This document shows, in pieces, positions 27,401 through 51,622 of a DNA stretch of 53,878 nucleotides; position 1 is the first letter of the stretch; each line of letters begins with the position of its first letter. The notes under the pieces are model-generated. The model worked only from the letters and a program-made list of their open reading frames with translations, was not told the DNA's origin and made no database searches. Where the stretch lies: NCBI GenBank assembly GCA_003170155.1, contig PMZQ01000081.1, forward strand, positions 27,596-81,473, given 5' to 3'. Made by a program: the position numbers and the translations under genes. The stretch comes from Actinomycetota bacterium. GTDB taxonomy: Bacteria; Actinomycetota; Thermoleophilia; Gaiellales; Gaiellaceae.

Positions 27401-27605
27401 AGGCGCGGATTATCTCGTCTTTCGCGACGGCCGTGTGAGTGTCGGCCCGCTCGTGCTGGGCTCGGCCGAGCTGCGCGAGCTCAGAAATCGGGTGGAGACG
27501 GCGGTCTACAGCTCGTCGCAGAGAGAGGTGACGTTGCGCAGCTCCACCTTCGATGCGGCCAGCGACCTGCTCGTTGCTATAATCGCCACGCGCCGGGCGC
27601 TGTGA
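24402..27605 (+). CDS. mfd: Transcription-repair coupling factor
   Basis: A 1067-residue DNA translocase that removes stalled RNA polymerase and recruits UvrA. The N-terminal UvrB-like module ends around residue 330. The RNA-polymerase-interacting (CarD-like) domain starts near residue 408 (RPGDYVVHEDQGVGRLIAFE). The RecG-like motor has Walker A GDVGFGKTEIA (about 560), the DEEQ box VVLDEEQRFG (about 657) and TATPIPRT, then VSTTIIESGLDIPQANTLI and QIRGRVGRSDR. The C-terminal D7 regulatory domain is present. It is slightly shorter than the roughly 1150-residue norm, mainly at the N-terminus. The start is ATG 24402, after the hairpin-borne Shine-Dalgarno. Confidence 0.96.
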   Translation: MVRPILHVFVRELAGHERLANLAASLPTRARVSEPALPLLVSALYELLERSLVIAVADDEAARDLAEAASWFLGIEQVAFLPSRGVRWDSGLTPAAHLIGERARALDVLEAGGLVCVSAAALADGMPPPEARPAAIRLRLGDLKRLDEIARDLAVAGYERVERAEERGQFAVRGGLLDVFPSSGRDPLRIELFGDEIEQMRAFSPFTQRTLHEVEEVLIHPASEWRSDLVTAALEEHGASLPPLPVVSLLDAVPDLVWQREEVERVWREELEIEPLSLEGVSELDPFPRGQPFSFEAQRPAIAARGLSEAERDLTSFVRAGLRVVVAFSHRGEALRTGSRLRALSAPLLEEGEELAREGELRFAVSPARRGFVWRELGLALLPETQVFRKRPSRAAPRIGRALQSFSELRPGDYVVHEDQGVGRLIAFETKEVAGVTRDYLLLGFKGDDRLYVPHEQIAKISRYIGADGKAPALSKLGGKAWQLLKSRARVNVHELAGELISLYAQRQQVEGVAYELEHEWLSQLEASFPYRETDDQERAIEAVKEDLESPRPMDRLICGDVGFGKTEIAIRAAFAVTLAGRQVLVLAPTTVLAEQHWNTFRERYRDFPVRVEMISRFRKASDTKRILADFREGKIDILIGTHRVLSRDVIPKSLGLVVLDEEQRFGVAQKELLRSLRLEVDVLTLTATPIPRTLHMSLAGLRDISTIETPPEGRQPIRTFVGVYDEELVKTALEREHARGGQSFYLHNRVETIEETAERLRQLCPGLSMIVGHGKMRERELEDCMLRFLHGEADVLVSTTIIESGLDIPQANTLIVERADMLGLAQLYQIRGRVGRSDRVAHAYLLYPSAEELSHEARMRLATLADHTELGAGLAIAMRDLELRGAGALLGDEQSGHVAAVGFELYVEMLEEAVAELSGRRRATPRPLRIDARIDAYIPAGYVPSEALKIDLHRRLALVEDENELRELEGSCEDRFGPLPEPVANLFAIQRAKLDLAQIGADYLVFRDGRVSVGPLVLGSAELRELRNRVETAVYSSSQREVTLRSSTFDAASDLLVAIIATRRAL

Positions 27606-35504: not shown

Positions 35505-36695
35505 TCAGCTCTTCGCCCCTGGAACCTGTTTCTGGTCAGCAAAGATCGCCCGACCGGTTGTGGGATCGAAGAAATACAGCCGCCTAGTATCCGCGACGAG
35601 TCGTAGTCGATCGCCCTCGCGCATCTTCGACTGCGGATCGACTCGCGCAAGAAGCATCACGTTTTTCCTGTCCAGCAGCCCGATTGGCTCTCCCGCGTTG
35701 GCTTCGGCAGTCACCGGGAAGTGCAGTAGCTCTTCCGACCCGAGCGCTTCTCTCAGGTTGCAGACGGCCTCGAGTATCCGTCCGGGCGGGACCTCGCCGA
35801 CGAAGGCCGCATCCTCGAGGTCCTCGGGGCGGATGCCGAGGACGACGTCCTTGCCTTCGTACGCCAACAGCTCCGGGTGCTCCGCGACCAGCTCATTGTC
35901 GACTTCGAGGCTGTGGTCGCCGAAGTGGGCTACGAGGCTTCCGTTCGCTCGTGTCAACCGCGCATCCACGAGGTTCATCGCCGGCGAGCCGATGAAGCCG
36001 GCGACGAACTGATTCGCTGGCCGTTGGTAGACACGCTCGGGTGTGTCCACTTGCTGAAGTGTTCCGTCTCGGAGCACGGCGATCCGATCGCCCATCGTCA
36101 TCGCCTCGGTCTGATCGTGCGTGACATAGATCGTGGTCACTCCAGACACGCGCTGGAGGCTGTGGATCTCCGCCCGCACCTGGACGCGCAACTTGGCATC
36201 GAGATTCGAGAGCGGTTCGTCCATCAGGAACGCGCGGGGCTCGCGTACGATCGCGCGCCCCATCGCAACCCGCTGTCGCTGGCCCCCGGAGAGCGCGCGC
36301 GGCTTGCGATCGAGATACGGCTCGAGCCCAAGCGTCTCGGCAGCTTGTTGAATTCTTCGTCGCCTCTCCGACCTAGGCACTTTGCGCAGCTTGAGGCCGA
36401 AGCCGAGGTTGTCAGCGACGCTCATGTGCGGGTAGAGCGCGTAGTTCTGGAAGACCATGGCGATGTCGCGCTCCTTCGGAGAGACGTCGTTCACCACGTT
36501 CCCACCGATGAGGATCGTTCCCTCGCTGATCTCTTCGAGCCCCGCGACCATGCGCAGCGCTGTCGTCTTCCCGCATCCCGAGGGGCCTACGAGAACCATG
36601 AACTCGGCCTCGTTCACCATCAGGTCGAGCGAATCGACCGCACGCGTCCCATCCGCGAATACCTTCGAGACTCCTTGAAACTCGATTGCAGCCAT
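35505..36695 (-). CDS. Sugar ABC transporter ATP-binding protein (MsmK/UgpC type)
   Basis: A 396-residue ATPase. It has Walker A GPSGCGKTT, Q-loop MVFQNYALYPH, signature LSGGQRQRVAMGRA, Walker B AFLMDEPLSNLDAKL and H-loop YVTHDQTEAM. A C-terminal TOBE/MalK regulatory domain (from about FIGSPAMNLVDA) is typical of carbohydrate uptake class 1 systems. It is the fourth gene of the binding protein-permease-permease-ATPase run and lies 15 nt after the second permease. The start is ATG 36695. It probably powers uptake of the oligosaccharide processed by the nearby GH65 enzymes. Confidence 0.95.
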   Translation of the reverse strand: MAAIEFQGVSKVFADGTRAVDSLDLMVNEAEFMVLVGPSGCGKTTALRMVAGLEEISEGTILIGGNVVNDVSPKERDIAMVFQNYALYPHMSVADNLGFGLKLRKVPRSERRRRIQQAAETLGLEPYLDRKPRALSGGQRQRVAMGRAIVREPRAFLMDEPLSNLDAKLRVQVRAEIHSLQRVSGVTTIYVTHDQTEAMTMGDRIAVLRDGTLQQVDTPERVYQRPANQFVAGFIGSPAMNLVDARLTRANGSLVAHFGDHSLEVDNELVAEHPELLAYEGKDVVLGIRPEDLEDAAFVGEVPPGRILEAVCNLREALGSEELLHFPVTAEANAGEPIGLLDRKNVMLLARVDPQSKMREGDRLRLVADTRRLYFFDPTTGRAIFADQKQVPGAKS

Positions 36696-36710
36696 ATCGG
36701 TCCTTTCGGG

Positions 36711-37712
36711 TCAGCCTTTGATTGCGCCGCCCAGTCCCGAGCCGCGTAGGAAGGAGCGCTGGAAGATCAGGAAGCCCACGATGGGCACTATGCAGGCGAT
36801 CAACATTGCGGCGAGGAAGACCCCGAGCTGGGTTTGCCCAGCGATCGCCGGCAGTCGAACAGAGATCGGCTGCTTGTTCGGGTCCTGGAGCACGAGGAAC
36901 GGCCAGAGGAAGTTCTTCCATTCGGCGATGAAGGCGAAGACCGAGACAACACCGAGGATCGGCTTGGACATCGGCAGCACGACCGAGAAGAAGAGGCGGA
37001 CTGGCCCTGCACCATCGATACGCGCCGCCTCGAACAGCTCGCGCGGCAGGTTGTCGAAGAACCTCTTCATGATGATGACGTTGAAGGAGCTGGCGCCGGC
37101 GGGTAGCCAGACGGCCCAATAGCTGTTCATGAAGGAGTGGTGGATCAGTGGAGGGTTCACGATCATGAGGTAGAGCGGCACGAGAAGCACGATTGCAGGT
37201 AGGAAGAGCGTGACTAGCAGCATGGCGGTGACGACTCGCGCATACCTGGGCCGCAGCACCGAGAGAACGTAACCTCCGGTGGTGGCGACCGTGAGCTGCA
37301 CTAGCCAGGAGCCAAAGCAGATCTCGATGGTGTTTAGTAGGTAGTGGCCCACCTGGACCGTTGACCAGGCCGTGCGCAGGTTGCTCCAGGCCGCGCCGTG
37401 AGCAAAGGTGAGCGACAGCGGGTGGTTGAAGATGTCGTTTGTCGGCGTGATCGCCGCCTTCGCGAGCCAGAGCAAGGGGCCGAGCCCGATGACGACGAGC
37501 GCGACTAGCAGGAGCATGTGCGTGGCCCCGACTCCCCATCTCACCGATGGCCGCTTCCAGTCGCTGGGCGAGATCAGGCCCTGATTGGTCAACCCGGAGA
37601 CCGGATTACGACGGCGACGGATCCGGGGCATTCGGTGCCCCGGAAGCATCAGGCCCTGGCTGCTAACGCTCTTGCTCGACTTCCGATGACGACGGATCCA
37701 GGGAGTGATCAT
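36711..37712 (-). CDS. Sugar ABC transporter permease, MalG type
   Basis: A 333-residue inner-membrane permease with six TM helices after a long basic N-terminal extension (about 65 residues). The ATPase-coupling EAA loop reads EAARIDGAGPVRLFFSVVLP. The family region AEWKNFLWPFLVL is present. Its ATG overlaps the stop of the MalF-type gene by 4 nt. Length is above the usual 280 because of the N-terminal tail, so a later start is possible though no better Shine-Dalgarno was found. Confidence 0.94.
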   Translation of the reverse strand: MITPWIRRHRKSSKSVSSQGLMLPGHRMPRIRRRRNPVSGLTNQGLISPSDWKRPSVRWGVGATHMLLLVALVVIGLGPLLWLAKAAITPTNDIFNHPLSLTFAHGAAWSNLRTAWSTVQVGHYLLNTIEICFGSWLVQLTVATTGGYVLSVLRPRYARVVTAMLLVTLFLPAIVLLVPLYLMIVNPPLIHHSFMNSYWAVWLPAGASSFNVIIMKRFFDNLPRELFEAARIDGAGPVRLFFSVVLPMSKPILGVVSVFAFIAEWKNFLWPFLVLQDPNKQPISVRLPAIAGQTQLGVFLAAMLIACIVPIVGFLIFQRSFLRGSGLGGAIKG

Positions 37713-38695
37713 TCGCTGCTCCAGGAACGAGTAGCTCGCAGATAGATGAGCGAGAATAGGGCCAGGAAAGCGGCAAGCATCAGACTGAGAGCGGTCGCAT
37801 AACCAAAGCCTGAGCCAACAGAACTGCCAAAGGCGTACTGGTAGATAAGCAACATGACCGTCAAGGTCTTGTTGTTCGGCCCGCCTTGGGTGAACAGGTA
37901 TGGCTCCAGGAAGACCTGAGCCGTCCCGATGATCTGCAGGATCAACGTCACCAGCATCACGCCGCGAAGCTGCGGCATGGTGATGTGCCAGACCTTCCGC
38001 CAGAGCGATGCTCCGTCAACTGAGGCAGCCTCGTAGAGCTCGCTGTTCACACCGATAAGGGCTGCCAAGTAGATGATCACCGTGCCGCCGGCATTGGCCC
38101 AGGTCGACTCGACCACGAGCGCCGGCATCGCCATCTGCTGCGACGACAGCCACGCGTACGGTCCCATGTGAACCCAACCCAGAATCGTGTTGAAGACGCC
38201 TGTCACGCTGCCGTCGTAGAACTCTTTCCAGAGCAGCACGGAGACCACCGGCGGGACGACGACGGGAATATAAGCCAAAGCAGAGTAGAAGCCGCGGTGG
38301 CGGCGAACCTCGCTCATCAGCACGGCGGCGACGAGCGGGATTGGATAGCCGAAGATGAGCGCGAGAAAGGCGAAGTAGGCCGTGTTCTTGACGGCGATCG
38401 GTAGCAGCGGATCGTGGATGACGTAGCGGAAGTTGTCGAGCCCCACCCATGTGTACGTGACGAGGTTGGGGGTCATCTCCATCGAGAGGAACACCGAGCG
38501 CACCATCGGGTACCACGAGAACGCTCCGAAGATGAGCAGCAGTGGTAGGGCGAACAGCAACGTGGTCAGGCCACCTGAACGCACCCATGTGACCGGCGTG
38601 CGGCGGCGATGATAGTGAACCCTCGCCCTTCCGGGCTCGGTTGCGCCCAGTGATCCGGCGCTCATATCGCTCGCAGTTGGGTTTGCCGTATCCAT
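37709..38695 (-). CDS. Sugar ABC transporter permease, MalF type
   Basis: A 328-residue permease. The N-terminal polar 45 residues precede TM1 (LTTLLFALPLLLIFGAF). The MalF-type first periplasmic loop (TWVGLDNFRYVIHDPLLPIA) is present, and the EAA loop is EAASVDGASLWRKVWHITMP. It pairs with the MalG-type permease downstream, with stops and starts overlapping. A 17-bp hairpin separates it from the upstream binding-protein gene, so the permease is probably expressed at a lower level. Confidence 0.94.
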   Translation of the reverse strand: MDTANPTASDMSAGSLGATEPGRARVHYHRRRTPVTWVRSGGLTTLLFALPLLLIFGAFSWYPMVRSVFLSMEMTPNLVTYTWVGLDNFRYVIHDPLLPIAVKNTAYFAFLALIFGYPIPLVAAVLMSEVRRHRGFYSALAYIPVVVPPVVSVLLWKEFYDGSVTGVFNTILGWVHMGPYAWLSSQQMAMPALVVESTWANAGGTVIIYLAALIGVNSELYEAASVDGASLWRKVWHITMPQLRGVMLVTLILQIIGTAQVFLEPYLFTQGGPNNKTLTVMLLIYQYAFGSSVGSGFGYATALSLMLAAFLALFSLIYLRATRSWSSE

Positions 38696-38722
38696 ATCGT
38701 TCTCGGGGAAGTGGGCCGTAGA

Positions 38723-38760
38723 AAAGTCAGCGGGAAGCCTTGCGGCTTCCCGCTGACTTT
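38723..38760 (-). terminator. Perfect 17-bp hairpin between binding-protein and permease genes
   Basis: Bases 38723-38739 pair without mismatch with 38744-38760 around a 4-nt loop. On the minus strand it is followed by a T-run, so it may act as a partial terminator or protect the binding-protein mRNA. That would give the usual excess of binding protein over permease. Confidence 0.75.
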
Positions 38761-38776
38761 ACAGAGTCGATCCTAA

Positions 38777-40156
38777 TCAGCTGTTGTTGATTGCGGTCTG
38801 AGCCGCCTTTTGTGCCGTGTTGAGCAGACCAGCGAAGTCTGCGTTCTTGTCCGTGAGGACGGCCTGAACGACTGCGTCGAGCGAGTGGTAGACATCCTGC
38901 GTCGCCACACCCGGCTCCGGAGCCAGCTTCTGCTTGAAGATGCCGGTCAGGAACGGCGCCATCTGGTCGCGCGGAACGTTGAAGTACGGCTTGATCCACG
39001 AGTTGGCCAGATCGAACTGCTTCTTGTTGAACACCGGGAACGTCGGAACGCCCACCGGCTGCTTGTTCGCAACCAACGTCTTCGCGTTGGCGATGGCCTG
39101 CGCCTTGTTGACCAGGGGCTGCTCGTAGAAGAAGTCAATCCACTTCATGCAAGCAGCTTTCTGGGCGGCGTTGGTCACGTACGGCGCGATTGCCGCCAGC
39201 GTGCCACCGCCCATGACGACGGCGGTTTTGTTGCTCGCCGTCGGGATCGGCGCGATGCCGTAGATGGCCGGATCGATGCTATCGGCCTGCACCATGTTCG
39301 TGTAGACGTCCGAGCCACTGATGAACATGCCGACGTTGCCAGCCGCGAAGGCCTGGTTGATCGTGCCCCAGCTGAGGTTGAAGTTGGAGCCCATCGAATT
39401 GTCATCCCAGCGCATCGCGTGCAGCAGGTTGAGTGCCTGGGTGATGTAGGAGTTGCCGGCGAGGGTCGCCTTTGTCTTCGACCCGCTCCCGCTCTCCACG
39501 CGCCCACCGAGGGAGTAAATGTCGGTGGTCAGGATCCAACCGCCAGTGTTGTCAGAGGCGGCCATCTCGACGTAGCCGGGCTTGCCGGTCTTGTCGGTGA
39601 TCTGCTTGGCATCCGCCTGCAACTCCGCCCAGGTTGTCGGAGGCTTGTTCGGGTCGAGCCCGGCCTGCGTGAAGAGAGCGCGGTTGTAGTGCAGCGCCTG
39701 CGCATAAGCCGCAGTCGGCAACGCGTAGACCTTGCTACCGACCTTTCCCTCCGCGATGACCGGTGGGTTGTACTTCGAGAAATACGGCAGTTTCTTAGCC
39801 AGAGCCGTGATGTCGGCGAGCTCCTTGTGCGAGCCGAGCGTTCTGGCGTCGGTGAAGGGAACGGTGAACACGTACGGCAGGGTCTTGGCCGCGAGCATCG
39901 GGGCGAACGTGTTCCCGAGCCACTGATACGGCACACCCAAGACCTTGATGTTCGGGTTCGCCTTCATGAACTGCTTGGCGCGCGTGTTCCACTGGGCGAA
40001 CGCTGCGTTCGTGCTGCCCGGGATCAGCGAGACCACCTTGATCGTGACCTTTTTCGTCTTCGTGGGAGCGGCGCTCGAGGCCGAGGCCGCAACTGCAAGC
40101 AGGCTCGTCGCTACTACTAAGGCAGCGACGATCCTGACGCTTCGATTGAACTTCAT
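38777..40156 (-). CDS. Extracellular sugar-binding protein (family 1) of an ABC importer
   Basis: A 459-residue secreted receptor. The signal peptide is about residues 1-29 (VRIVAALVVATSLLAVAASA) with a signal-peptidase I-type AxA end. No lipobox Cys is seen, which is unusual for a Gram-positive binding protein that must stay at the membrane. The mature domain has the family's IKVVSLIPGS strand, PYVFTVPFTD, ALPTAAYAQALHYNRALFTQ (sugar-binding region), PPTTWAELQADAKQI and GNVGMFISGSDVY. The ATG is preceded by repeated purine Shine-Dalgarno-like runs. It is the first gene of the importer operon, divergent from the LacI genes. Confidence 0.93.
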   Translation of the reverse strand: MKFNRSVRIVAALVVATSLLAVAASASSAAPTKTKKVTIKVVSLIPGSTNAAFAQWNTRAKQFMKANPNIKVLGVPYQWLGNTFAPMLAAKTLPYVFTVPFTDARTLGSHKELADITALAKKLPYFSKYNPPVIAEGKVGSKVYALPTAAYAQALHYNRALFTQAGLDPNKPPTTWAELQADAKQITDKTGKPGYVEMAASDNTGGWILTTDIYSLGGRVESGSGSKTKATLAGNSYITQALNLLHAMRWDDNSMGSNFNLSWGTINQAFAAGNVGMFISGSDVYTNMVQADSIDPAIYGIAPIPTASNKTAVVMGGGTLAAIAPYVTNAAQKAACMKWIDFFYEQPLVNKAQAIANAKTLVANKQPVGVPTFPVFNKKQFDLANSWIKPYFNVPRDQMAPFLTGIFKQKLAPEPGVATQDVYHSLDAVVQAVLTDKNADFAGLLNTAQKAAQTAINNS

Positions 40157-40597
40157 TGTGTCCTTTCCTTTCCTTCGCTCCGGAATCTGTACGTCAAGTA
40201 CGACGTCCCGTCGCCGGGCGAGTTAGGTTCCATGGCCCTGCTCCGCGACTCGGGGAATGGGATGCACTCGACCGGCCGTCGACTGAGTCCGGATAATCCT
40301 TAGCGCCGTTGCCGTCATTCCCGCACGCGTCACGCCGGCAAGCATGACAGATTCTGCAAATCGATGCAAGAGTCAGACGATTGCTTGCAGATTTGCTACT
40401 CGCCACCGCAGCTTTGTTCAGACGAGGTCGCCTGCCGTAGCGCTGTCATCGGCAAGCTGAGGGGGATATTCAGGGCACGGCGGTATCGATCGACGAGCTG
40501 TTTTTCGAGGCAGAGATCGGTGCCGACGCCTGAGGTCACCCTTGACGGCCGGTCGTGTCCGGATGGGATTCCTCTCCACATGCATTAGGCTTGCCGC
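40157..40597. promoter_or_regulatory. Divergent control region between importer operon and lacI-type genes
   Basis: A 441-nt gap without a gene. For the minus strand, TTGACG lies at 40197-40192, and purine-rich Shine-Dalgarno-like repeats lie just before the binding-protein ATG. For the plus strand, TAGGCT at 40586-40591 is 6 nt before the first LacI gene's ATG, suggesting a leaderless mRNA. Two half-site-like motifs, TGCAAG at 40365-40370 and GCTTGCAG at 40383-40390, lie in the middle and resemble sequences near the second LacI gene. Confidence 0.45.
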
Positions 40598-41653
40598 ATG
40601 GCGCGCAGGCTGGCCGAAGTAGCGAAGTACGCACACGTCAGCGAAGCTACGGTCAGTCGCGTCCTCAACATGAAGCCCGGGGTCTCAGAGGCGACACGCG
40701 CGGCGGTGCTGACAGCGCTCGATGTTCTCGGCTACGAGCGGCCGACTCACCTTCGCGGTAACCGCCCGCGTCTGGTCGGGCTCGTCCTCCCCGAGCTCCA
40801 GAACCCCATCTTCCCAGCCTTCGCCGAGGTCGTGGCCGACGCGCTGGCGAAGCATGACTTCACGCCCGTTCTCTGCACGAGGACCGGGGGAGGAATCGCG
40901 GAGTCCGCGTACGTCGAGCTGCTGTTGGCCCAGGAGGTTTCGGGCCTGGTCTTCTTCGGTGGCCAGTACCACGAGGCTGCAGCCAACCACGATCACTACC
41001 GTCTGCTCCACGACCGCGGTCTACCGGTGGTACTCATTAATGCCGCGTACGAGGACATCGGCTTTCCGCGAGTGTCGGTCGACGATCGCCATGCCGTCGA
41101 CCAGGCACTGCGACACCTCGTCTCGCTTGGCCATGAGCGGATCGGTCTCGTTCTGGGGCCTGCCGACCACGTGCCCTCTGCTCGCAAGCTCGAGGCCTTC
41201 CAGGCCTCTGAGCGGATGCCGGAAGGCTGGGACGACGGGTTAGTCGCGCGAACGCCGTTCTCGCTCGCCGGGGGACAGGCTGCAGGCACCACGCTGATCG
41301 AGAAAGGTGCCACCGGCATCATCTGTGCCAGCGACATCCTGGCGCTTGGCGTCATCCGGGGTGCTCAGAGGTTGCCCCTGGACGTGCCCGGCGACGTCTC
41401 GGTCATCGGCTTCGACGACTCCTCTTTGATGAGCTTGACCGATCCTCCGCTGACCACTGTGCGCCAGCCGCTCACCGAGATGGGCCTGGCAGCCGTCGCC
41501 CTGCTGATGACCCAGATCAACGGCAGCGGGGTTTCTTCCGAAGAGCTCTTCTTCGAGCCAGAGCTCGTGGTGCGCTCGTCAACCGCGCCGGCTCGCGAGG
41601 CCAAAGGTGAACGTAGGCGGGCCGGCCTGCCGAGCAATCACCTAACGACCTGA
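40598..41653 (+). CDS. LacI-family transcriptional regulator (copy 1)
   Basis: A 351-residue repressor. The N-terminal HTH (about residues 2-25) is MARRLAEVAKYAHVSEATVS with the recognition helix ATVSRVLN. The hinge follows (GYERPTHLRG), then a periplasmic-binding-protein-like sensor domain (LVGLVLPELQNPIFPAFAEV; VSVIGFDDSSLMSLTDPPLT). It is divergent from the importer operon and closely related to the next gene, with an identical recognition helix, so both probably bind the same operator. The start is ATG 40598, with no Shine-Dalgarno. The effector is unknown and probably a sugar from the pathway encoded here. Confidence 0.93.
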   Translation: MARRLAEVAKYAHVSEATVSRVLNMKPGVSEATRAAVLTALDVLGYERPTHLRGNRPRLVGLVLPELQNPIFPAFAEVVADALAKHDFTPVLCTRTGGGIAESAYVELLLAQEVSGLVFFGGQYHEAAANHDHYRLLHDRGLPVVLINAAYEDIGFPRVSVDDRHAVDQALRHLVSLGHERIGLVLGPADHVPSARKLEAFQASERMPEGWDDGLVARTPFSLAGGQAAGTTLIEKGATGIICASDILALGVIRGAQRLPLDVPGDVSVIGFDDSSLMSLTDPPLTTVRQPLTEMGLAAVALLMTQINGSGVSSEELFFEPELVVRSSTAPAREAKGERRRAGLPSNHLTT

Positions 41654-41694
41654 TCTCGGAGGTGTTTCCTCCTCCTCCACTCGGCCACCAGTGC

Positions 41695-41708
41695 TGAAAG
41701 CGCTTGCG
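41695..41708. promoter_or_regulatory. LacI/CcpA-type operator (cre-like)
   Basis: TGAAAGCGCTTGCG contains the perfect palindrome AAGCGCTT (41698-41705), the standard LacI-family core AAnCGnTT, and matches the cre consensus except at the last base. It lies where the -35 of the second LacI promoter would be, implying repression or autoregulation. Confidence 0.65.
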
Positions 41709-41719
41709 GCTTTTTGCTC

Positions 41720-41725
41720 TATAGT
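41720..41725 (+). promoter_or_regulatory. -10 box of lacI copy 2, probable leaderless start
   Basis: TATAGT at 41720-41725 is 7 nt before ATG 41733; no Shine-Dalgarno is present. The intervening TGCAAGC may be an additional half-site. Confidence 0.55.
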
Positions 41726-41732
41726 TGCAAGC

Positions 41733-42761
41733 ATGGCGCGCCGTCTTTCGGAGATCGCGACGAAGGTTGGGGTCAGCGAGGCCACGGTGAGCCGCGTTCT
41801 GAACGGCAAGCCCGGCGTCTCCGAAAGCACCCGCGCGGCTGTGCTGACGGCACTCGACGTGCTCGGCTACGAGCGGCCGACACAGCTGCGAGGCGAGCGC
41901 GCTCGCCTGGTCGGGCTCGTTCTTCCGGAGCTCCAGAACCCGATCTTCCCGGCTTTTGCCGAGGTTGTTGCCGACGCGCTGGCCAAGCGCGGCTTCACTC
42001 CGCTCCTCTGTACGAGGACGATAGGAGGAGTGTCGGAGGCAGCGTACGTCGAGCTTCTGCTGCAGCACCAGGTATCGGGTGTGATCTTCGCAGGCGGGCT
42101 CTACGCGTATGCCGAGGCTTCTCAGGAGCACTACAGGCGCCTGGTTACTCGCCGGCTGCCGACGGTACTCGTGAACGCTTCGGTGGACGCTCTCACCTTC
42201 CCGCATGTCTCGTGCGATGACGCAGTTGCTGTCGAGCAGGCGCTCGGTCACCTGCGAGATCTTGGCCACGAGCACATCGGTCTCGTTCTCGGCTCACCGG
42301 ATCACATGCCCTCGAGGCGCAAGCTCGCCGCCTTCGCCGCGCAGCACGACGGAGAGGACATCGCCGACCGTGTGGAGCATACGATCTTCTCGTTCGAAGG
42401 CGGGGACGCCGCCGCGGCAAGGCTCATGCGGCGCGGCATCACAGGCCTCATCTGCGCAAGCGACGTGCTCGCACTAGGCGCCATTCGGGCTGCGCGGCGG
42501 CTTGGTCTGAACGTGCCCGACGACGTGTCGGTCATCGGCTTCGACGACTCCGCTCTCATGAGCTCGATGGATCCGGCCCTTACGACCGTACGGCAACCGA
42601 TCGGTACCATGGGCCGCGCCGCCGTGTCCCTCCTGGTGGGGCAGATCGAGCGGACTAGCGTGCCGGCACAGGAATTACTCTTCGAGCCCGAGCTCATCGT
42701 GCGAGCATCCACGGCTCCGCTCCGCGATCGCCGGCACACCGTGGCCGCTTCCTCAGTCTAG
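41733..42761 (+). CDS. LacI-family transcriptional regulator (copy 2)
   Basis: A 342-residue repressor paralogous to the preceding gene, with long identical stretches (VSEATVSRVLN; RAAVLTALDVLGYERPT; LVGLVLPELQNPIFPAFAEV). The sensor domains differ more, especially around residues 100-220, so the two may respond to different sugars. ATG 41733 is used because the HTH begins there (MARRLSEIATKVGVSEATVS) and a -10 box lies 7 nt upstream; an in-frame ATG at 41691 would add 14 residues. A cre-like operator sits in its promoter, and the gap to copy 1 is 79 nt. It arose by tandem duplication. Confidence 0.93.
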   Translation: MARRLSEIATKVGVSEATVSRVLNGKPGVSESTRAAVLTALDVLGYERPTQLRGERARLVGLVLPELQNPIFPAFAEVVADALAKRGFTPLLCTRTIGGVSEAAYVELLLQHQVSGVIFAGGLYAYAEASQEHYRRLVTRRLPTVLVNASVDALTFPHVSCDDAVAVEQALGHLRDLGHEHIGLVLGSPDHMPSRRKLAAFAAQHDGEDIADRVEHTIFSFEGGDAAAARLMRRGITGLICASDVLALGAIRAARRLGLNVPDDVSVIGFDDSALMSSMDPALTTVRQPIGTMGRAAVSLLVGQIERTSVPAQELLFEPELIVRASTAPLRDRRHTVAASSV

Positions 42762-43215
42762 GAAGCCGCCGGTCGGAGCAAGTGCCGGTCAGCAAGGGCT
42801 TGTTTTAACTTTGCAAGCTTCTGCGACTATCTTTCAATTTGGTGCCCGTCGAACGACTGGCCGATTCCGAGGCGCGCTCGGGAAGACCCAACTCCCAGAA
42901 TCCACTATCTGGCCAATGGCCGAGATCGAGCACCGCGGGCCGCGAAACGACTCTCGATCGCACCTCTCCAACTACAGCAAGCGGCTGGCAGGTAAGGGGG
43001 CGGGCGTTCAGTGAGGGCGGGTGTTCAGGACGGCGGCACTTTTCACCGTCTCGCTCATGGACTGTAGAGCGCGCGCGAGGCTACTCCGACACCTTGGAAG
43101 GGGCAGACTCTTCGGCAGATGCTCGCAACGCCCCGCGACGAGTTGAATCCTCGCAGCGGTTTTCGCTGCTCGGCGCGGTCGCTACCCGACCAGGCGAGAC
43201 AGGGGTAGACGAGGC
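42762..43215. other. Gene-free 454-nt gap
   Basis: No convincing reading frame on either strand. A short AT-richer patch at about 42800-42840 contains TTTGCAAGCTT, similar to the TGCAAG motifs near both LacI genes. The rest may be degraded sequence belonging to the epimerase pseudogene that follows. No tRNA or terminator was seen. Confidence 0.4.
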
Positions 43216-43874
43216 ATGGGCGGGCGAGGCGTCCCCTCGATTGCAAGGGAGTCGATCGGAAGCACGCCAACAGGTCAGGCGGTCGATCGCTACACGCTGA
43301 CGAACCCCTCCGGAATCGTGGTCAAGGTGATCACCCACGGCGGGATCATCCAGGAGATCCTGCTCCCTGATCACGAGGGGCAGCCGGTGAACGTCGTCCT
43401 CGGCTTCTCGACGCCGAGCGCTTCGCGGTGAGTGGCCCGGGTCTGATCCCGACGGGCGATATCGAGCTCGTCGCCGGCACACCGCTTGACCTTAGCCAGC
43501 CGACGCGGATCGGCGATCGCATCGAGGATCAGTTCGAACAGATGCGGATCGCGCGGGGGTACGACTTCAGTTACGTGCTGAAGGATTCCGACTCCCCGGC
43601 ACTCCTGGCGGCCGCCCACGTGGTCGAGCCTACGACCGGACGTGCGCTCGACGTCTACACGACAGAGCTCACGATCCACTTCTATTCGGGCAACTCCCTC
43701 GACGAGACACTCAGAGGCATCGGTGGGGGCATCTACCTCCAGAGGGCGGGCTTCGCCCTCGAGACGCAGCACCTGCCGGACTCGCCGAATCATCCAAGCT
43801 TCCTCGGGGCCGTCTTGCGTCCCGGCCAAGTGCTCAGGTCAACGACGATCTTTCGTCTTTCTGTGCCGAGCTAG
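43216..43874 (+). pseudogene. Aldose 1-epimerase (galactose mutarotase) pseudogene with internal deletion
   Basis: Two pieces of one GalM-like protein lie in different frames. The N-terminal piece (43216-43431) reads GQAVDRYTLTNPSGIVVKVI, then HGGIIQEILLPDHEG and NVVLGF, the first beta-strands of the family. The C-terminal piece (frame open from about 43412 to 43874) reads DAERFAVSGPGLIPTGDIEL and later the catalytic-Glu region FALETQHLPDSPNHPSF. The middle about 130-150 residues, including the catalytic His segments, are missing at a junction near 43410, with a frame change. The product would be inactive. An intact ancestor would have interconverted glucose anomers released by the GH65 reactions. 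Confidence 0.8.
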
Positions 43875-43937
43875 GCGCTCTGCACCAGCAGCCCGCCGCC
43901 GGCGAGGCGATCTGGTCGCTCTGACAGCGAGAAACTA

Positions 43938-43973
43938 GCTCTGGATCAGAGCCCTGAGTGCGACTCGCTCAGG
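43938..43973. terminator. Two small hairpins in the convergent gap before pgmB
   Basis: GCTCTG-GAT-CAGAGC (43938-43952, 6-bp stem) is followed directly by CCTGAG...CTCAGG (43953-43973, 6-bp stem). They lie between the epimerase pseudogene and the pgmB stop, a place where a two-way terminator is expected. There is no clear T-run. Confidence 0.4.
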
Positions 43974-44622
43974 CTGCGATGGCCTGGTCGACGACGGAGA
44001 GCGTCAGCAGCTCGAGGAGGCTCGGAACGACCACATCTGCGTCCTTGAGGACCGCCGGGCGCCCGATGCCGACGGCGCCCATCCCGCCGCGCCGCGCGGC
44101 CTCGATCCCGGCCTCGGCGTCCTCGAAGACGACGCAGTGCTCTGGGAGGACGTTCAGCGTCTGCGCGCCGAGCACGAAGACCTCGGGATCCGGTTTCGCC
44201 CGCTCGACCCTGTGACCGTCGATGACCACGTCGAACAGACTGGCGATCTGCAGGCGCTCCAGGATTAGCGGGGTGTTCCGGCTCGCCGACCCGATTGCGG
44301 TCTTGACGTCCTTCGATCGGAGATGTCGGACGTATTCCGCGGCGCCCGGAAGAATCTCGCTTGTGTCCATTCGCGAGATGTACTCGACGTACCAGGTGTT
44401 CTTGCGAGTGGCCATCTCCTGTCGTGCCGGCTCGTCCGCGCTGACGTCACCGATCTCCAGGAGGATCTCCAGCGAGCGCATGCGGCTGACGCCCTTCAGC
44501 CGCTCGTTGTCCGTTTCCGTGAAGTCGAAGCCTTGCTCGCGGGCGAGCCGCTTCCAGGCGAGGTAGTGGTACTTCGCAGTGTCGACGATCACGCCGTCGA
44601 GATCGAAGATGGCGAGCTCCAT
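43969..44622 (-). CDS. pgmB: Beta-phosphoglucomutase
   Basis: A 217-residue HAD-superfamily enzyme converting beta-glucose 1-phosphate to glucose 6-phosphate. It has motif I FDLDGVIVDTAKYHYLAWKR with the nucleophile and acid/base aspartates and the beta-PGM-specific helix. A cap domain follows (ERLKGVSRMRSLEILLEIGD), then motif II IGSASRNTPLILE, KPDPEVFVLGA and FEDAEAGIEAARRGG. ATG 44622 gives the family-typical N-terminus; a GTG at 44634 overlapping the upstream stop (GTGA) would add 4 residues. Its position directly after two GH65 genes is the classic phosphorylase-mutase pairing and shows that those enzymes yield beta-glucose 1-phosphate. Confidence 0.93.
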   Translation of the reverse strand: MELAIFDLDGVIVDTAKYHYLAWKRLAREQGFDFTETDNERLKGVSRMRSLEILLEIGDVSADEPARQEMATRKNTWYVEYISRMDTSEILPGAAEYVRHLRSKDVKTAIGSASRNTPLILERLQIASLFDVVIDGHRVERAKPDPEVFVLGAQTLNVLPEHCVVFEDAEAGIEAARRGGMGAVGIGRPAVLKDADVVVPSLLELLTLSVVDQAIAA

Positions 44623-44630
44623 GCGGCCGA

Positions 44631-47030
44631 TCACGACAGCGCTGCCGTCTCGGGCAGCGAGATCGTGAGCGGCCCAGTCTCGGGCAGCGTGTACGACTGT
44701 TCTCCATCGTGGACGACGATCCGGCTCTTGGCGAGCGGCTCCACGGCTTCGACGGTCATCTCGTCGTGGCCTATCGTGAGCACGAGCTTCTGACCGCGAT
44801 ATGTGAGTGGCAGCCGAACACGTGACCAGTGCCGCGGCAGGCTCGGCGCGACGGTGATGCTGTCGGCGGAGCACCGGATACCGCACAGGCCGAGCACTGC
44901 CGACATCCAGGCGCCGCCGTTCGCGGCAGGATGCGTGCCCGCAATGTAGAGCGTCCCCACATACTGCTTGCCGTTACCGTCCAGGTCGATCGACGCGGTC
45001 TTCATGAAGTAGTCGTACGCCGAGTCGATCCTGCCGATCTCCGAGGCGACGAGCGAGTACGCGCACGAGCTGAGGCTGGACCCGTGCTCCGTCCGCGGCT
45101 CGTAGAACTCCCAGTTGGCCGCCTTGATGTCTCTCGAGTAGGCGCCGCGGAACAGGTAGAGCCCGAGGACGACGTCCGCCTGCTTGACGATCTGAGTCGT
45201 CGTTGCCAGGCCGTTGCCACCGCCAAGGTACTCATGGGGATGGAGCTTGCGGCCGAGGAGCTCTGGCAGCGAGACATCCTCGAGCGCCATGTACCCGTCG
45301 AATTGCGGAACGAGCGAGGTTTGTGGATCGGGCTCTGGGCGGTAGAGACGGGGAGCGATCTGGCGGATCGTCTCGAGGTCGCTCTGGAAGTCGAGCCGGC
45401 TCAGCAACGCTCGGGCGAGGACCGGGTGCTGCTGCTGTAGGTGTTCGTCGACCTGCAGGCACACGTCGAAGCAGTGTGCGGCCATCCAGTTCGTGTACGC
45501 GTTGTTGTTCACGCGCTCGTGGTATTCGTCCGGGCCCGTCACGTCGAGGATCTCGTAGCGGCCCTTGTTGTGGTTGTAGTACGAGCACGTCAGATAGAAG
45601 CGAGCGCACTCGTAGATGATTTCGGCGCCACCGTCAAGCAGCACGGAGTCGTCGCCGGTGACGGCATAGTAGTCCCAGATCGCGTACGCGACGTCGGCGC
45701 TGATGTGGTACTGCTTGTCGCGAAAGTACGTCCGCATCGGGCGGTCGGTGAAGACGTCGGTGACGTTGAAGAGGGTGCAGGCGTCGTCACCCGTGTCCTG
45801 GCTCTCCCAGGCGTAGAACGCACCTCGGAAGCCGTACTCGCGTGCCTTGCGACGTGCCCCGTCGAGAGTGTGGTAGCGGTACAGAAGGAGGTTGCGGGCG
45901 ATCTCCGGGAAGGTATGCGTGAAGAAGGGCAGCATGAAGATCTCGGTGTCCCAGAAGACCGCGCCCTTGTACACCTGACCCGACAGTCCGCGCGCCGGGA
46001 TCGACACGCTCTGCGCGTGGGTGGGGGCCACCGAGAGCAGGTGATACATGCTGAACCGCAACGCGAGCTGCGCGTCGTCGTCGCCGTCGATCTCGATTCC
46101 GCAGTCGCGCCAGCGCTCGTCCCAACTCGCGACGTGCGCCGCGAGCAGGACGTCGAACCCCTGTTCAGCGGCATCCCGACACGTACGTTGTGCCTCGGCC
46201 AGCGGATCCGCACTTTCGAGGGCGGTATAGACCGCGACGATCTTGGTCAGCGTGTGCGGCTCGCCGGGCGCCAGCGACAGTTGGGTGTCGTGCCAGATCC
46301 GCTTCTCTTCCCGACCCCATCCCGCCAGGCCGTCGTCGCCGGTCAGCCGCTCGACGACCGCGATCGGTACGAGGCGTTCGTGCGTGCACGCGGTGAGCGC
46401 GAGGGCGCCTTCATCGAACGACGATTCGAACTGCTCCAGGTGAGGGCCGTTCAGGTCCCAAACCTCGCCGTCGATCCCCGTCACCACGCGAAGCGTGCAG
46501 GGCTGCGAGGCCTCGACCGTGTATTCGAAGCAGATGAGGTGCGGCTCCACCAGGCTGGCAAACCGACGCGCCGAGACTGCGATCGTGCAGCCGTCGCCGG
46601 TCATGAACGTCGTCCGTCGCTCGTGCACGGCCTGCCGGAGGTCGAGCGTCTGCTCGTGGCTTGCGACGTCGCTCGACAGCGCGTGCAGCGGCTGGCTCTG
46701 GTACTCGAGGCGCAGGTAGCCCGGGTTCGGGATATTCACGGGCTCGCGCCAGGAATCGCCCACCTTGTCGTACAGCCCCGAGACGATCAACGCGACCTTC
46801 TGCTCGTGCGTGTACTCCTCGAGCGTTCCCCGATAACCCAGATAGCCGTTGCCGACGAGGAACGAGCTCCCCAGTCGATCCATGACGTCCTGGTTGAGTG
46901 CACTCGTCTCTGTGATTCGCCAGGTCATTCCGTCCACGATGGATGCACTCTCATCCGCCGATGGCGCCGGCTTTTGCCCGGCGATCTCATCCCATTCGCC
47001 CGTCGCTTCAATCGATAGCTCCCGTCGCAT
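44631..47030 (-). CDS. GH65 inverting alpha-glucoside phosphorylase (A)
   Basis: A 799-residue (alpha/alpha)6-barrel enzyme of glycoside hydrolase family 65. Segments visible: N-terminal SSFLVGNGYLGYRGTLEEYT, GAVFWDTEIFMLPFF (356-370), the general acid Glu502 in TGPDEYHERVNNNAYTN, KQADVVLGLYL (Lys616-Gln617), and HGSSLS (649-654), which binds phosphate in phosphorylases. It would split an alpha-linked glucobiose with phosphate to beta-glucose 1-phosphate and glucose. The family's known substrates include maltose, trehalose, kojibiose, nigerose and alpha-1,3-oligoglucans; sequence alone does not decide. There is no signal peptide, so it is cytosolic. Its ATG overlaps the stop of the second GH65 gene (TAATG), and its stop abuts pgmB. 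Confidence 0.93.
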   Translation of the reverse strand: MRRELSIEATGEWDEIAGQKPAPSADESASIVDGMTWRITETSALNQDVMDRLGSSFLVGNGYLGYRGTLEEYTHEQKVALIVSGLYDKVGDSWREPVNIPNPGYLRLEYQSQPLHALSSDVASHEQTLDLRQAVHERRTTFMTGDGCTIAVSARRFASLVEPHLICFEYTVEASQPCTLRVVTGIDGEVWDLNGPHLEQFESSFDEGALALTACTHERLVPIAVVERLTGDDGLAGWGREEKRIWHDTQLSLAPGEPHTLTKIVAVYTALESADPLAEAQRTCRDAAEQGFDVLLAAHVASWDERWRDCGIEIDGDDDAQLALRFSMYHLLSVAPTHAQSVSIPARGLSGQVYKGAVFWDTEIFMLPFFTHTFPEIARNLLLYRYHTLDGARRKAREYGFRGAFYAWESQDTGDDACTLFNVTDVFTDRPMRTYFRDKQYHISADVAYAIWDYYAVTGDDSVLLDGGAEIIYECARFYLTCSYYNHNKGRYEILDVTGPDEYHERVNNNAYTNWMAAHCFDVCLQVDEHLQQQHPVLARALLSRLDFQSDLETIRQIAPRLYRPEPDPQTSLVPQFDGYMALEDVSLPELLGRKLHPHEYLGGGNGLATTTQIVKQADVVLGLYLFRGAYSRDIKAANWEFYEPRTEHGSSLSSCAYSLVASEIGRIDSAYDYFMKTASIDLDGNGKQYVGTLYIAGTHPAANGGAWMSAVLGLCGIRCSADSITVAPSLPRHWSRVRLPLTYRGQKLVLTIGHDEMTVEAVEPLAKSRIVVHDGEQSYTLPETGPLTISLPETAALS

Positions 47031-49336
47031 TAAGCCAGCGCTCCATTCGCGGCTACCGTCAGGCCGGCTTTTCCGACGGTCTCGAGCCGCCCCCGCACTA
47101 CCGCGCTGACCGGGCCACCGTCCAGCACTTCGAAAACAGCCTCGCTCTGCGTGACCGTGACGCGGAGGAGGGAGTTACGATAGACGATCTGGAAGCGGTA
47201 AGAGTTCCAGTGGCCAGGGATCTTGGGATTGAAGGACAGCTCGTCACCGTCTGATCGCATCCCGCCGAACCCGTAAACAATGTTCATCCACGCCGCCGCG
47301 ATTGACGTCATGTGGATGCCTTCCCGCACGTTCCGATTGTAGTCGTCGAGATCGATCCGCGTCGCGAACCGGAAGAACTCCAACGCCTCTTCGTTCCTGC
47401 CAAGTTCCTCGGCGAGAATCGAATGGATAGACGGCGAGAGCGACGACTCGTGAATGCAGCGCGGCTCGTAGTACTCGTAGTTGGCGCGCTTCTCCTCGAG
47501 GGAGAACGACCGGTTATAGAGGAACATGAACATCAACACGTCCGGCTGCTTGATCATGTCGTTGCGATACATGCGGTCGTACGACCAGTGGCTGTAGAGC
47601 GGAAAGTCTTCGACGGGGATCTTGTCGATGTCGATGTGGGGGAGATCGAAGAAACCCTCGTGCTGCTCGTAGAGCTGCGTCTCCGGGTCGTAGGGGATGA
47701 ACATCGCGTCCGCCATCTCGCGCCAGCTTGCAAGTTCGCCGTCGCTGCAGTCGAGCTGCTCGAAGAGGTCGGCGCGCCGGTCGGGAGACGTCTCCGCCAT
47801 CTCGGCGAGAACGTCCAGGGCGTACAGGAACGTCCGCTTCGCCATCAGGTTCGTGTAGCAGTTGTTGTTGACCATCATCTGGAACTCATCCGGCCCCATC
47901 ACCGCGTAGTAGCCGAAGCGATGATGCCGGGGCGACCACTGGCCACGAGTAGCCAGGAAGCGGCAGATCTCGACGAGTAGCTCCGCTCCTTCGCGATAGA
48001 GGAGATCGGTATCGCCGGTGATCTTCGCGTAGTGCCAGATTGCGTAGGCGACGGACGTCGTCGGGTGGAACTGGAGACTGGCGTGCTGCCAGAGGGTGCA
48101 GCTCTCAGTTCCATCGGATGTGGCGATCGGGAAGCAGGCGCCCGCGCAATCCAGATCCCGAGCCCGCTCGCGAGCCTGCGGCAGTGTGCGGTAACGAAAC
48201 TCGATCAGTGAGCGTGCCGCGGCCGGGTTGCTGAACAGGTAGAAGGGAAGGCAGTACGTCTCGCTGTCCCAGAACGCGTTCCCGTTGTACGCCTCTCCGG
48301 AGAGGCCCTTCGCACCGATGTTCGAGCCGGGCACGACGCCGCGATACGTCTGATGAAGCTGAAACAGGCAGTAGCGGATTCCCTGCTGTGTATCGGGATC
48401 ACCGTCGATAATGATGTCGGAACGGCCCCAGAAGTCCCGCCAGTAGGCTGCGTTCGACGCTGCGGACACGTCGTAGATCACGCCGCGGAGAGCGTCGAGC
48501 CGTTCCTGGCCTCGCTCCCAAACCGCTTCCGGAGCCTCGCCTGGATGCTGCCCCGGAACGAGAACGACGAGCCTGTCGACGTTCCGTTCCTGCCCCTGCT
48601 CCAGCTCTAGCGAGAACTGACAACCGACGAACTTGTCCGCCGTGATCGGCTCCAGTGCGTCGGCATCTACGCCGTGAATCTCGAAGCCGGCGAAGAGCGG
48701 GTGTTTCGTGTTCTTCGTGACTCCGAGAAGGGCGTACCGCTCGCCGTCCGTCGACTTTTTCGGACAGCGCCAGAAGTTCGTGCGATAGCTCTCGTGGACA
48801 CAGGAGAAATCGAGCGCGAGCGTGACCCGCACAGGGCCCGAGAAGTTGAGCGGCGTCAGCGAAACCCGCTGGAGCCCAAGCTCACGCGTCTCCATGCTGA
48901 GGAAGCGCGAGAACGATACTCGGAGTTCCTGGCCCTGCTTTGTCTTCCAGACGAACTCACGCCGCAGCACTCCTGTCCGTAGGTCGAGCTCTCGGCGGAA
49001 CTCGTCAAACTGAACGCAGTTCAGATCGAGCATCTCGCCCGCGAGCTCGATCCGCGTATGCAGCCAGTCGACGGTGTTCACCATGAAGCAGATCCGGTTC
49101 GAGATCCCCTTGTATGTCATCGGCTCTTTGAGAAATCGCTCCTCGTTGACGCCGTTGACGTAGCACCCAATGAGGGTGTCGCCCGAATAACCCTCGTCCA
49201 TATACCCGCGGACACCTATCTGCTCGTTGGCGAGCGAGAAGAGAGATTCGGAGGCGCGACTTCGCTCGGGGTGGAATCCTTCTTCGATCAGCTTCCAGGG
49301 ATCGACAACCAGGTACTGATCTGCTGCTTTTCCCAT
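47030..49336 (-). CDS. GH65 inverting alpha-glucoside phosphorylase (B)
   Basis: A 768-residue second GH65 protein, clearly a different subfamily from its neighbour. It has ESLFSLANEQIGVRGYMDEG near the N-terminus, NAFWDSETYCLPFYLF (353-368), general acid Glu484 in MGPDEFQMMVNNNCYTN, MIKQPDVLMFMFLY (Lys596-Gln597) and HESSLSPS (629-636) for phosphate. It is cytosolic, with no signal peptide. A GGAGAATTT box precedes ATG 49336. It is the first gene of the three-gene minus-strand operon. It may act on longer oligosaccharides or another linkage than enzyme A; this is inference from the presence of two subfamilies side by side. Confidence 0.92.
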   Translation of the reverse strand: MGKAADQYLVVDPWKLIEEGFHPERSRASESLFSLANEQIGVRGYMDEGYSGDTLIGCYVNGVNEERFLKEPMTYKGISNRICFMVNTVDWLHTRIELAGEMLDLNCVQFDEFRRELDLRTGVLRREFVWKTKQGQELRVSFSRFLSMETRELGLQRVSLTPLNFSGPVRVTLALDFSCVHESYRTNFWRCPKKSTDGERYALLGVTKNTKHPLFAGFEIHGVDADALEPITADKFVGCQFSLELEQGQERNVDRLVVLVPGQHPGEAPEAVWERGQERLDALRGVIYDVSAASNAAYWRDFWGRSDIIIDGDPDTQQGIRYCLFQLHQTYRGVVPGSNIGAKGLSGEAYNGNAFWDSETYCLPFYLFSNPAAARSLIEFRYRTLPQARERARDLDCAGACFPIATSDGTESCTLWQHASLQFHPTTSVAYAIWHYAKITGDTDLLYREGAELLVEICRFLATRGQWSPRHHRFGYYAVMGPDEFQMMVNNNCYTNLMAKRTFLYALDVLAEMAETSPDRRADLFEQLDCSDGELASWREMADAMFIPYDPETQLYEQHEGFFDLPHIDIDKIPVEDFPLYSHWSYDRMYRNDMIKQPDVLMFMFLYNRSFSLEEKRANYEYYEPRCIHESSLSPSIHSILAEELGRNEEALEFFRFATRIDLDDYNRNVREGIHMTSIAAAWMNIVYGFGGMRSDGDELSFNPKIPGHWNSYRFQIVYRNSLLRVTVTQSEAVFEVLDGGPVSAVVRGRLETVGKAGLTVAANGALA

Positions 49337-49434
49337 CTAAATTCTCCGCGTTTCGTTTTCACGCGACTCAACGTCGCGTCTGACTTCGGCGCGTTGGCCC
49401 CCCGCCGCGCCCTCAACTCCTCGGTTTTTACCCC

Positions 49435-49470
49435 GGCGCCGATCGTGACTTATTCCGTCGGATCGGCGCC
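49435..49470. promoter_or_regulatory. Perfect 10-bp inverted repeat upstream of the GH65 operon
   Basis: GGCGCCGATC (49435-49444) and GATCGGCGCC (49461-49470) are exact inverse complements with a 16-nt spacer, 99 nt before the GH65-B start. It could be a regulator site or a terminator for the upstream GH87-like gene; no T-run follows. The rest of the 49337-49558 gap holds no gene. Confidence 0.5.
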
Positions 49471-49558
49471 TGATCGTACTCGGGCGGCATCGAGCTAATG
49501 GCGGTGACCGTCTTGCGGTGATTGAGGCCAGCGCAAGACAGATGCTGTTGTGCGCGAC

Positions 49559-51622
49559 TCACCATGGCGAAGGTGGAGGTGGCGGAACGACCGGCGGGCG
49601 ATCGTCGCACGTGATCGTGTTCGGCAGCTCCCACGCAGCGAGCCAGCCGCCGCCGTTGCCACCCAGGTCGGTTACGGAGAACTCCGAGCCGGCCGGCGTG
49701 AAGTGGAACGACCCACAGTTGTTGATACCTACCGCGCCGACGTTTCGCGCGTTCACGTTCTCGAACGTCGCGGAGCCCGCAGCGCGAGCACTCAGTACCG
49801 AAATGCCGGTTCCATCAACATGGATGTCCTTGAAGTGCACGTTCGAGATCGTATACAGGTCCCTCACGGGGATGTCCGAAACGATCAGGATGGCGTTGTA
49901 GGTGCTCTGGAGGTAGTTATCCCCGGTGACCTCGATGTCCGCGTCGAGCGAGCCTTCGAGCGCGAACAGCCAGATTGCGCCAAGTCCGATGTTCCAGTTC
50001 AGCTCGAGTGACCCCGCGCGGACGACGGTGTTGTTCTTGAACCTGAGGTAGCCCGCGAACGGCGTGCTTCCGAAGCGCTGGCCTGCATGAAGACCACTGC
50101 CTTCGCGCACCGGATCCGCGACGACGTTGTTCGAGACCGTGTTGTCCCGGCCGCCGTAAATCGCGATCCCGTTCGCAAACACCGGCGACTGCACCGTGTT
50201 GTGGTCGAAGGTGTTGTTGGCGTTCTCGATCTCCGGGTGGCCGTCGACGGCTTGCGACCACATCGCCAGCGCGTCGTCGCCGGTGTTTCGGAAGAACGAG
50301 TTCACGACCTTCGAGTTCGTGACCCCTAGGTGGAAGTTGACGCCGTCTGCGATCTGGTTGACGATGATCGTGTTCGAGATCGTCACGTTGTCCATCGGTC
50401 CGTCAAGCCAGATCCCGACCTTCGTGTGGTCGATGTAGAGGCCGTCGATGGTCGAGTCGCTCAAGGCGCCGCCGATTCCGTTTACCTGATCGGCGTCGAT
50501 CCGCTCGCGAACGTCGCCTTCGATGGCGAAGTCCGACAGGTGCACATTGCGACTGCCGCCGTCCCGGGCGTACTTACCGTAGAAGCCGACGCCGGTGTGG
50601 ATCGAGCCGTCGGGCAGCCGTGAGGGGAGCGCGACCTGATGACCGAAGACGATCGACCACCAGTTGCCGGCGCCCTGAATCGCGACATCGTCAACGACGA
50701 TATGGCGGTTCACCTGGAACCGACCCTCGGGAATGAAGACCGTTTGGCCGTGAGCCTTGGCGTAGGCGATTGCGGCGTCGAAGGCTTCCGCGGAGTCCTT
50801 TCGCCCGGTCGGATCGGCGCCGAAGCGCACCACCGACGCCGACACTCGTGGCTCGGTGAGGGGTGGCGCGACCCGCTCGAAGTCCACGAGATCGATCACA
50901 ATCCAGGCTGCGTTCGTGTCGCTCGGCACCGTGAGCCGAACCTTGTCGCCGGTCTTGTATGTGTGGTCGAGCAGCACGCGCTGCTCGTCGTAGAAGTGCA
51001 TCGGCCGGAACGGCGTCGCAAACGGTGGCGCCGGATCCGTCGCGGCCGGGACACAGGAGCACTCGGCGACCCACTGGTCTGGGTGCAGCGGGCCTGCATT
51101 CGGATCGTTCGTGAACGGATACTGGTTGTAGAACCACGAGTACCTCGAGGTCAGCGTCAGTGTCTTCGCGTCCCTCCCGTTCACCGTCAGCTCGATCGGG
51201 ACGTCGATCCCCCCTCCCGTCGGCGCGTCAGGGACGCTGTAGCGGATCGTGAGTGCGTTCGCGGGCCGGGTTAGCGCGAACTCGACGTACTGGCCCGGTG
51301 CCGAAAGCTGGACTGCCTGCCGACCGGAAGCCTCTCCGGCGAGCGTGTAGGCGGCTGTGTCGAAGCCGATGATGGATCCGTTCGTGCGCGCGCTCTCCGC
51401 CTCTTGCTCGACGAAGTTGACCCTCGCCCCTCGCCCCACTGTCAGCGCTGGATCAATCGCAGCGACGGTATCTCGCGGCCGAGGATCCTTCTTTGCGGCA
51501 GCCGTCGCCGTTTTGATTGCGATCATCGAGACTGCGAGTGCCAGCATGGAATCCGGCGCGACCCTTTGAAGCCAGCGGCCGACTTCTCGATCGCGGCTTG
51601 TGCAAATGCGGCGAGACGCCAT
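49559..51622 (-). CDS. Secreted right-handed beta-helix protein, probable GH87 alpha-1,3-glucanase/mycodextranase
   Basis: A 687-residue exported protein. A basic N-terminus and hydrophobic SMLALAVSMIAIKTATAAA suggest a Sec signal. Residues about 70-250 form a carbohydrate-binding-like beta domain (NFVEQEAESARTNG; GRQAVQLSAPGQYVEFAL; LTSRYSWFYNQYPFTNDP) of the kind attached to GH87 enzymes. From about 265 (VVRFGADPTGRKDSAEAFDA) a pectate-lyase-like beta-helix runs to about 670, including AKAHGQTVFIPEGRFQV and the acidic FRNTGDDALAMWSQ (about 440-450), a likely catalytic region. A Pro-rich tail ends it. I recognise GH87-like sequence, but other beta-helix glycosidases remain possible. ATG 51622 has a GAGGAA box about 11 nt upstream; ATG 51547 is an alternative. 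Confidence 0.75.
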   Translation of the reverse strand: MASRRICTSRDREVGRWLQRVAPDSMLALAVSMIAIKTATAAAKKDPRPRDTVAAIDPALTVGRGARVNFVEQEAESARTNGSIIGFDTAAYTLAGEASGRQAVQLSAPGQYVEFALTRPANALTIRYSVPDAPTGGGIDVPIELTVNGRDAKTLTLTSRYSWFYNQYPFTNDPNAGPLHPDQWVAECSCVPAATDPAPPFATPFRPMHFYDEQRVLLDHTYKTGDKVRLTVPSDTNAAWIVIDLVDFERVAPPLTEPRVSASVVRFGADPTGRKDSAEAFDAAIAYAKAHGQTVFIPEGRFQVNRHIVVDDVAIQGAGNWWSIVFGHQVALPSRLPDGSIHTGVGFYGKYARDGGSRNVHLSDFAIEGDVRERIDADQVNGIGGALSDSTIDGLYIDHTKVGIWLDGPMDNVTISNTIIVNQIADGVNFHLGVTNSKVVNSFFRNTGDDALAMWSQAVDGHPEIENANNTFDHNTVQSPVFANGIAIYGGRDNTVSNNVVADPVREGSGLHAGQRFGSTPFAGYLRFKNNTVVRAGSLELNWNIGLGAIWLFALEGSLDADIEVTGDNYLQSTYNAILIVSDIPVRDLYTISNVHFKDIHVDGTGISVLSARAAGSATFENVNARNVGAVGINNCGSFHFTPAGSEFSVTDLGGNGGGWLAAWELPNTITCDDRPPVVPPPPPSPW

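Follow-up and report, generated by a model that had tools for sequence, protein, structure and literature searches.

Results

Gene content of the locus

The window, a stretch of 53,878 nucleotides, is part of contig C94 from the genome of a soil bacterium, a 2.11-Mb draft of 123 contigs that is 92% complete. Its positions 35505-51622 hold an ABC importer, two LacI-family regulators, a beta-phosphoglucomutase, two GH65 enzymes and an alpha-1,3-glucanase-like protein, and in their midst lie the remains of galM, the gene for aldose 1-epimerase (Table 1); the importer is found on the opposite side of these remains from the beta-phosphoglucomutase and GH65 genes. The nearest solved structures to the GH65 pair are kojibiose phosphorylase (6w0p), maltose phosphorylase (1h54) and the GH65 entry 4ktp, and the top-scoring solved structure for the alpha-1,3-glucanase-like protein is 7c7d. 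As such, the region is likely a locus for the breakdown of an alpha-1,3-linked or mixed alpha-glucan.

Table 1. Coordinates in the window of the galM remnant and neighbouring genes
Feature	Position	Strand	Basis or remark
Tandem pair of LacI-family regulators, upstream of galM	40598..42761	+	Pfam LacI, Peripla_BP_3
galM N-terminal remnant	43216..43413	+	66 codons to the breakpoint; Pfam Aldose_epim 1-42
galM deletion junction	43407..43413	+	about 430 bp lost; microhomology of at most about 7 bp
galM C-terminal remnant	43410..43874	+	other frame; Pfam Aldose_epim 185-298
Intact beta-phosphoglucomutase, facing galM in convergent orientation	43969..44625	-	TIGR01990 bPGM, 228.5 bits (cut-off 189.4)
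Two GH65 alpha-glucoside phosphorylase-type enzymes	44631..49336	-	Pfam Glyco_hydro_65 N, m and C

No syntenic form of this locus was found in the genomes searched, and a plasmid search returned matches covering only 12-31% of the query. The GH65 query had one close match in the genus (66%, genome G002, contig L128, 1-6500), on a contig that starts inside the gene and carries none of the window's other locus genes; this contig may be misassembled or represent a different locus. The translations of L128 1-6500 hold runs of X, which stand for unknown bases. At about 67-69% DNA identity, the two neighbouring LacI-family genes point to a tandem duplication, and the same-genus genomes yielded LacI homologs at only 29-35%. 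No Rfam family reached its gathering threshold within positions 40000-45000, and neither of the two open reading frames tried in the gap before the galM remnant matched an NCBIfam family.

Two pieces of galM in different frames

The first galM open reading frame (43216-43431, 71 aa) matches positions 1-42 of the 299 in the Pfam Aldose_epim model (PF01263) with an E-value of 1.2e-5 and 25.3 bits, slightly below the model's cut-off of 27 bits, and beyond the breakpoint continues out of frame until it meets a stop at 43431. For the second frame (43428-43871, open from 43371) the match covers model positions 185-298, with an E-value of 2.1e-23 and 83.6 bits, so that the domain is covered in two separate parts split over two frames and in no single frame at full length. 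Against the NCBIfam models TIGR02636 and NF008277 the C-terminal piece reaches 93 bits (cut-off 397.65) and 85.3 bits (cut-off 240), where an intact GalM from a same-genus genome, L004 (378 aa), scores 340.7 and 318.2. The remnant is thus a recognisable gene that is truncated and disrupted in frame, as is expected of a pseudogene. Within either piece, the open reading frames and Pfam matches reveal no further stop or frameshift, and the third-position GC of 0.81-0.83 is similar to that of neighbouring genes; any decay therefore seems young or incomplete, and the loss need not be old.

With L004 as the reference, the N-terminal piece aligns to residues 7-66 (53% identity) and the C-terminal piece restarts at the equivalent of residue 209 (60% identity), which leaves residues 67-208, or 142 aa, absent. 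These results bear out the first-pass annotation of the window, which had recognised both ends of GalM, placed 130-150 missing residues between them and put a change of frame near position 43410. By arithmetic, and presuming that the lost gene had the same length as L004, the deletion comprised 430 nt (3 x 143 + 1), a size that accounts for the frame change. Both flanks fit GalM together only over about 43407-43413, the limit to which the breakpoint can be resolved, and hence the sequence shared at the break, as judged on residues, is at most about 7 bp. A programmed frameshift was considered and rejected, as a shift could not restore the 142 missing residues.

According to the alignment with human GALM (1snz), the missing middle contained the positions of Asn81, Arg82, His107 and His176, and with it went both members of the histidine pair. 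The equivalents of Asp243 and Glu307 are kept as D and E in the C-terminal piece, and His occupies the position of Gln279, a residue that all 79 of 79 homologs share. We take all seven of these human residues to belong to the active site, with Glu307 and the histidines being catalytic. A protein that lacks the histidine pair should not work as a mutarotase, as far as can be predicted from the alignment.

Rate and constraint on the surviving parts

In a tree of 80 GalM sequences over 217 columns, the remnant groups with GalM proteins from two genomes of the same genus (L003 and L004, support 0.85) and forms the longest terminal branch of the 80 tips (0.77, followed by 0.74; median 0.12). In relative-rate comparisons with L004, the window had 30-44 specific changes and L004 had 15-20 across ten outgroups, which are not independent of each other; p was below 0.05 with eight of them and 0.058 and 0.096 with the other two. 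The control gene mfd (window 24402-27605) evolved evenly, with 10-20 against 12-17 changes and p of 0.56-0.67 over three outgroups. Window mfd is 87% identical to that of the same-genus genome G003, as against 53-60% for galM and L004, so that L004 is possibly a paralog rather than the direct counterpart of the remnant. Such paralogy may account for part of the distance, but not for the asymmetry in rate.

The remnant also deviates in 13 of the 73 columns that are conserved in at least 90% of 79 homologs, the next worst sequence deviating in 6 of 73; this set omits L033 and L035, which duplicate L004 and L003, as well as the short L054, L055 and L098. In a second set, chosen by the intact L004 GalM and from which L146 and L161 were left out owing to a stop or short coverage, the outcome varied with breadth: among the closest homologs the remnant ranks first of 20 with 21 of 78 mismatches, and in the broad version (28 homologs plus L004) it is no outlier, with 4 of 39 mismatches, rank 4-5 of 30 and z of 0.2-1.0. 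The window's beta-phosphoglucomutase, which served as a control with 23 (L168-L190) of 29 homologs, was not an outlier either (ranks 5 and 7 of 24). Relaxed selection on the galM remnant is thus likely as judged from these comparisons, to which the conserved-column test, varying as it does with the homolog set, lends some but not decisive support.

The unexceptional mismatch count in the broader homolog set leaves some room for a different order of events, in which a diverged but working GalM subfamily had evolved fast before the deletion, the contig carries a recently deleted allele and intact alleles may persist. The want of a second lesion in either piece would fit this order as well, but a close intact relative is missing, the nearest reaching only about 54-60% identity across the surviving parts. 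We regard this sequence of events, which overlaps with the reading as a pseudogene and differs from it only in what came first, as rather unlikely.

Other mutarotases and the distribution of galM

The first-pass annotation had ascribed the loss of galM to relaxed selection or to replacement elsewhere in the genome. Whereas the long branch and the asymmetric rate, set against the even mfd, speak for the former, the genome search it had proposed for another galM left the latter unsupported: in the whole 92%-complete assembly there was no second PF01263 match beyond the two remnant pieces. Likewise, the RbsD/FucU and RhaM mutarotase families had no match in this assembly.

Any PF01263 match is confined to 6 of the 37 genomes of the window's family, its own included, and the C-terminal piece was matched at E<=1e-20 in 3 of the 129 genomes of the order, namely the window's own and the same-genus G001 and G003, where galM sits within an arabinose-type operon. 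The araB-like kinase of G003 finds no better match in the window's genome than one of 27% identity, and hence this operon is apparently absent from it. Since the nearest GalM thus belongs to another locus, a direct intact counterpart of the remnant was not found. Two same-genus loci (L028 5176-9658 and L029 8888-11554) carry two convergent galM genes, one following an araB-like kinase gene and the other having an N-terminal extension that by eye resembles a signal peptide.

Discussion

The galM remnant is very probably a real pseudogene in decay. In our proposed scenario, a deletion of some 430 bp, whose end points had no more than about 7 bp in common, would have removed the middle of the aldose 1-epimerase gene, and with it the positions of the catalytic histidines, and put the downstream part out of frame, after which the surviving ends would have been drifting. 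A short-homology mechanism is proposed for the break, and the deletion is presumably present in the organism itself.

The latter point depends on the assembly, and a short assembly collapse had been named as a further possibility by the first-pass annotation. An artefact, in which the organism's galM is intact and about 430 bp were dropped by the assembler or scaffolder, would be in keeping with the draft state of the source (123 contigs, 92% complete) and with the absence of another lesion and the normal codon-position GC in both pieces. However, the stretch of 201 bases at the junction is found only once in the assembly, any further match being no better than 24 bases at 92%, and no direct repeat of at least 14 bp was reported in 42760-43980, which together make a repeat collapse unlikely; the overlap of the flanks is also well under usual k-mer sizes. 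Moreover, a galM that was intact but mis-assembled would be expected to show normal constraint on its ends, whereas the surviving parts evolve faster than their intact relative. An assembly error is therefore disfavoured, and we consider it improbable.

It is also conceivable, if highly improbable, that the C-terminal open reading frame (GTG at 43428, 148 aa) is still produced as a non-catalytic or altered protein, given that the frame is open, matches the family well and retains the Asp243 and Glu307 equivalents. Such a product would, however, be devoid of the histidine pair and of over half the domain, the otherwise invariant Gln is altered, the relative-rate test points to faster evolution, and a simple sigma-70 scan gave no promoter-like site. 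We give very little credence to a translated C-terminal half retained for a new non-catalytic role, e.g. sugar binding, in a putative alpha-1,3-glucan locus.

If galM is a decaying pseudogene, the cell probably manages without a mutarotase, given that glucose also mutarotates spontaneously. Inverting GH65 phosphorylases make beta-glucose 1-phosphate, and beta-phosphoglucomutase handles that product, so that a mutarotase is not needed for this step; here, the adjacent beta-phosphoglucomutase would take up the beta-glucose 1-phosphate released by the GH65 pair. A dispensable mutarotase is hence the picture that we favour. The earlier suggestion that a mutarotase is a natural partner of anomer-specific phosphorylases found no support among related loci. 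Among the 80 galM loci that were fetched, whose flanks extended at most 6 kb and were in some cases shortened by contig ends, none matched either GH65 protein of the window at E<=1e-15, and many of them carry a sugar-ABC ATPase instead. Of the related genomes that carry a GH65 homolog and were also scanned for PF01263, G002, G012 and G018 gave no match; G049 and the window's own genome combine a GH65 homolog with PF01263 pieces. Where a route through GH65 phosphorylases has a beta-phosphoglucomutase of its own, a mutarotase thus need not accompany it. The available parts of PMC12231095 and PMC8208680 contain no description of a broken galM in a GH65 locus.

Taken together, the galM remnant is most likely an ordinary pseudogene, a dispensable gene in decay. 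In the window's family galM is an accessory gene and its loss is ordinary; the alpha-glucan locus around the remnant is more interesting than the broken gene itself.

Compared with known GalM proteins (PF01263; nearest solved structures 1snz, human GALM, and 4rnl), both ends of the remnant align in the expected order and places and share the equivalents of Asp243 and Glu307, but the 142 central residues, the single frame and both catalytic-histidine positions of GalM are wanting. Its nearest relatives in the tree, the GalM proteins of the araA-araD-araB-galM cluster in L003 and L004 (53-60% identity over the surviving parts; ara names assigned from a reading of the open reading frames), are intact, 378 aa long and encoded in an arabinose-type operon, whereas the remnant lies in a GH65 locus.
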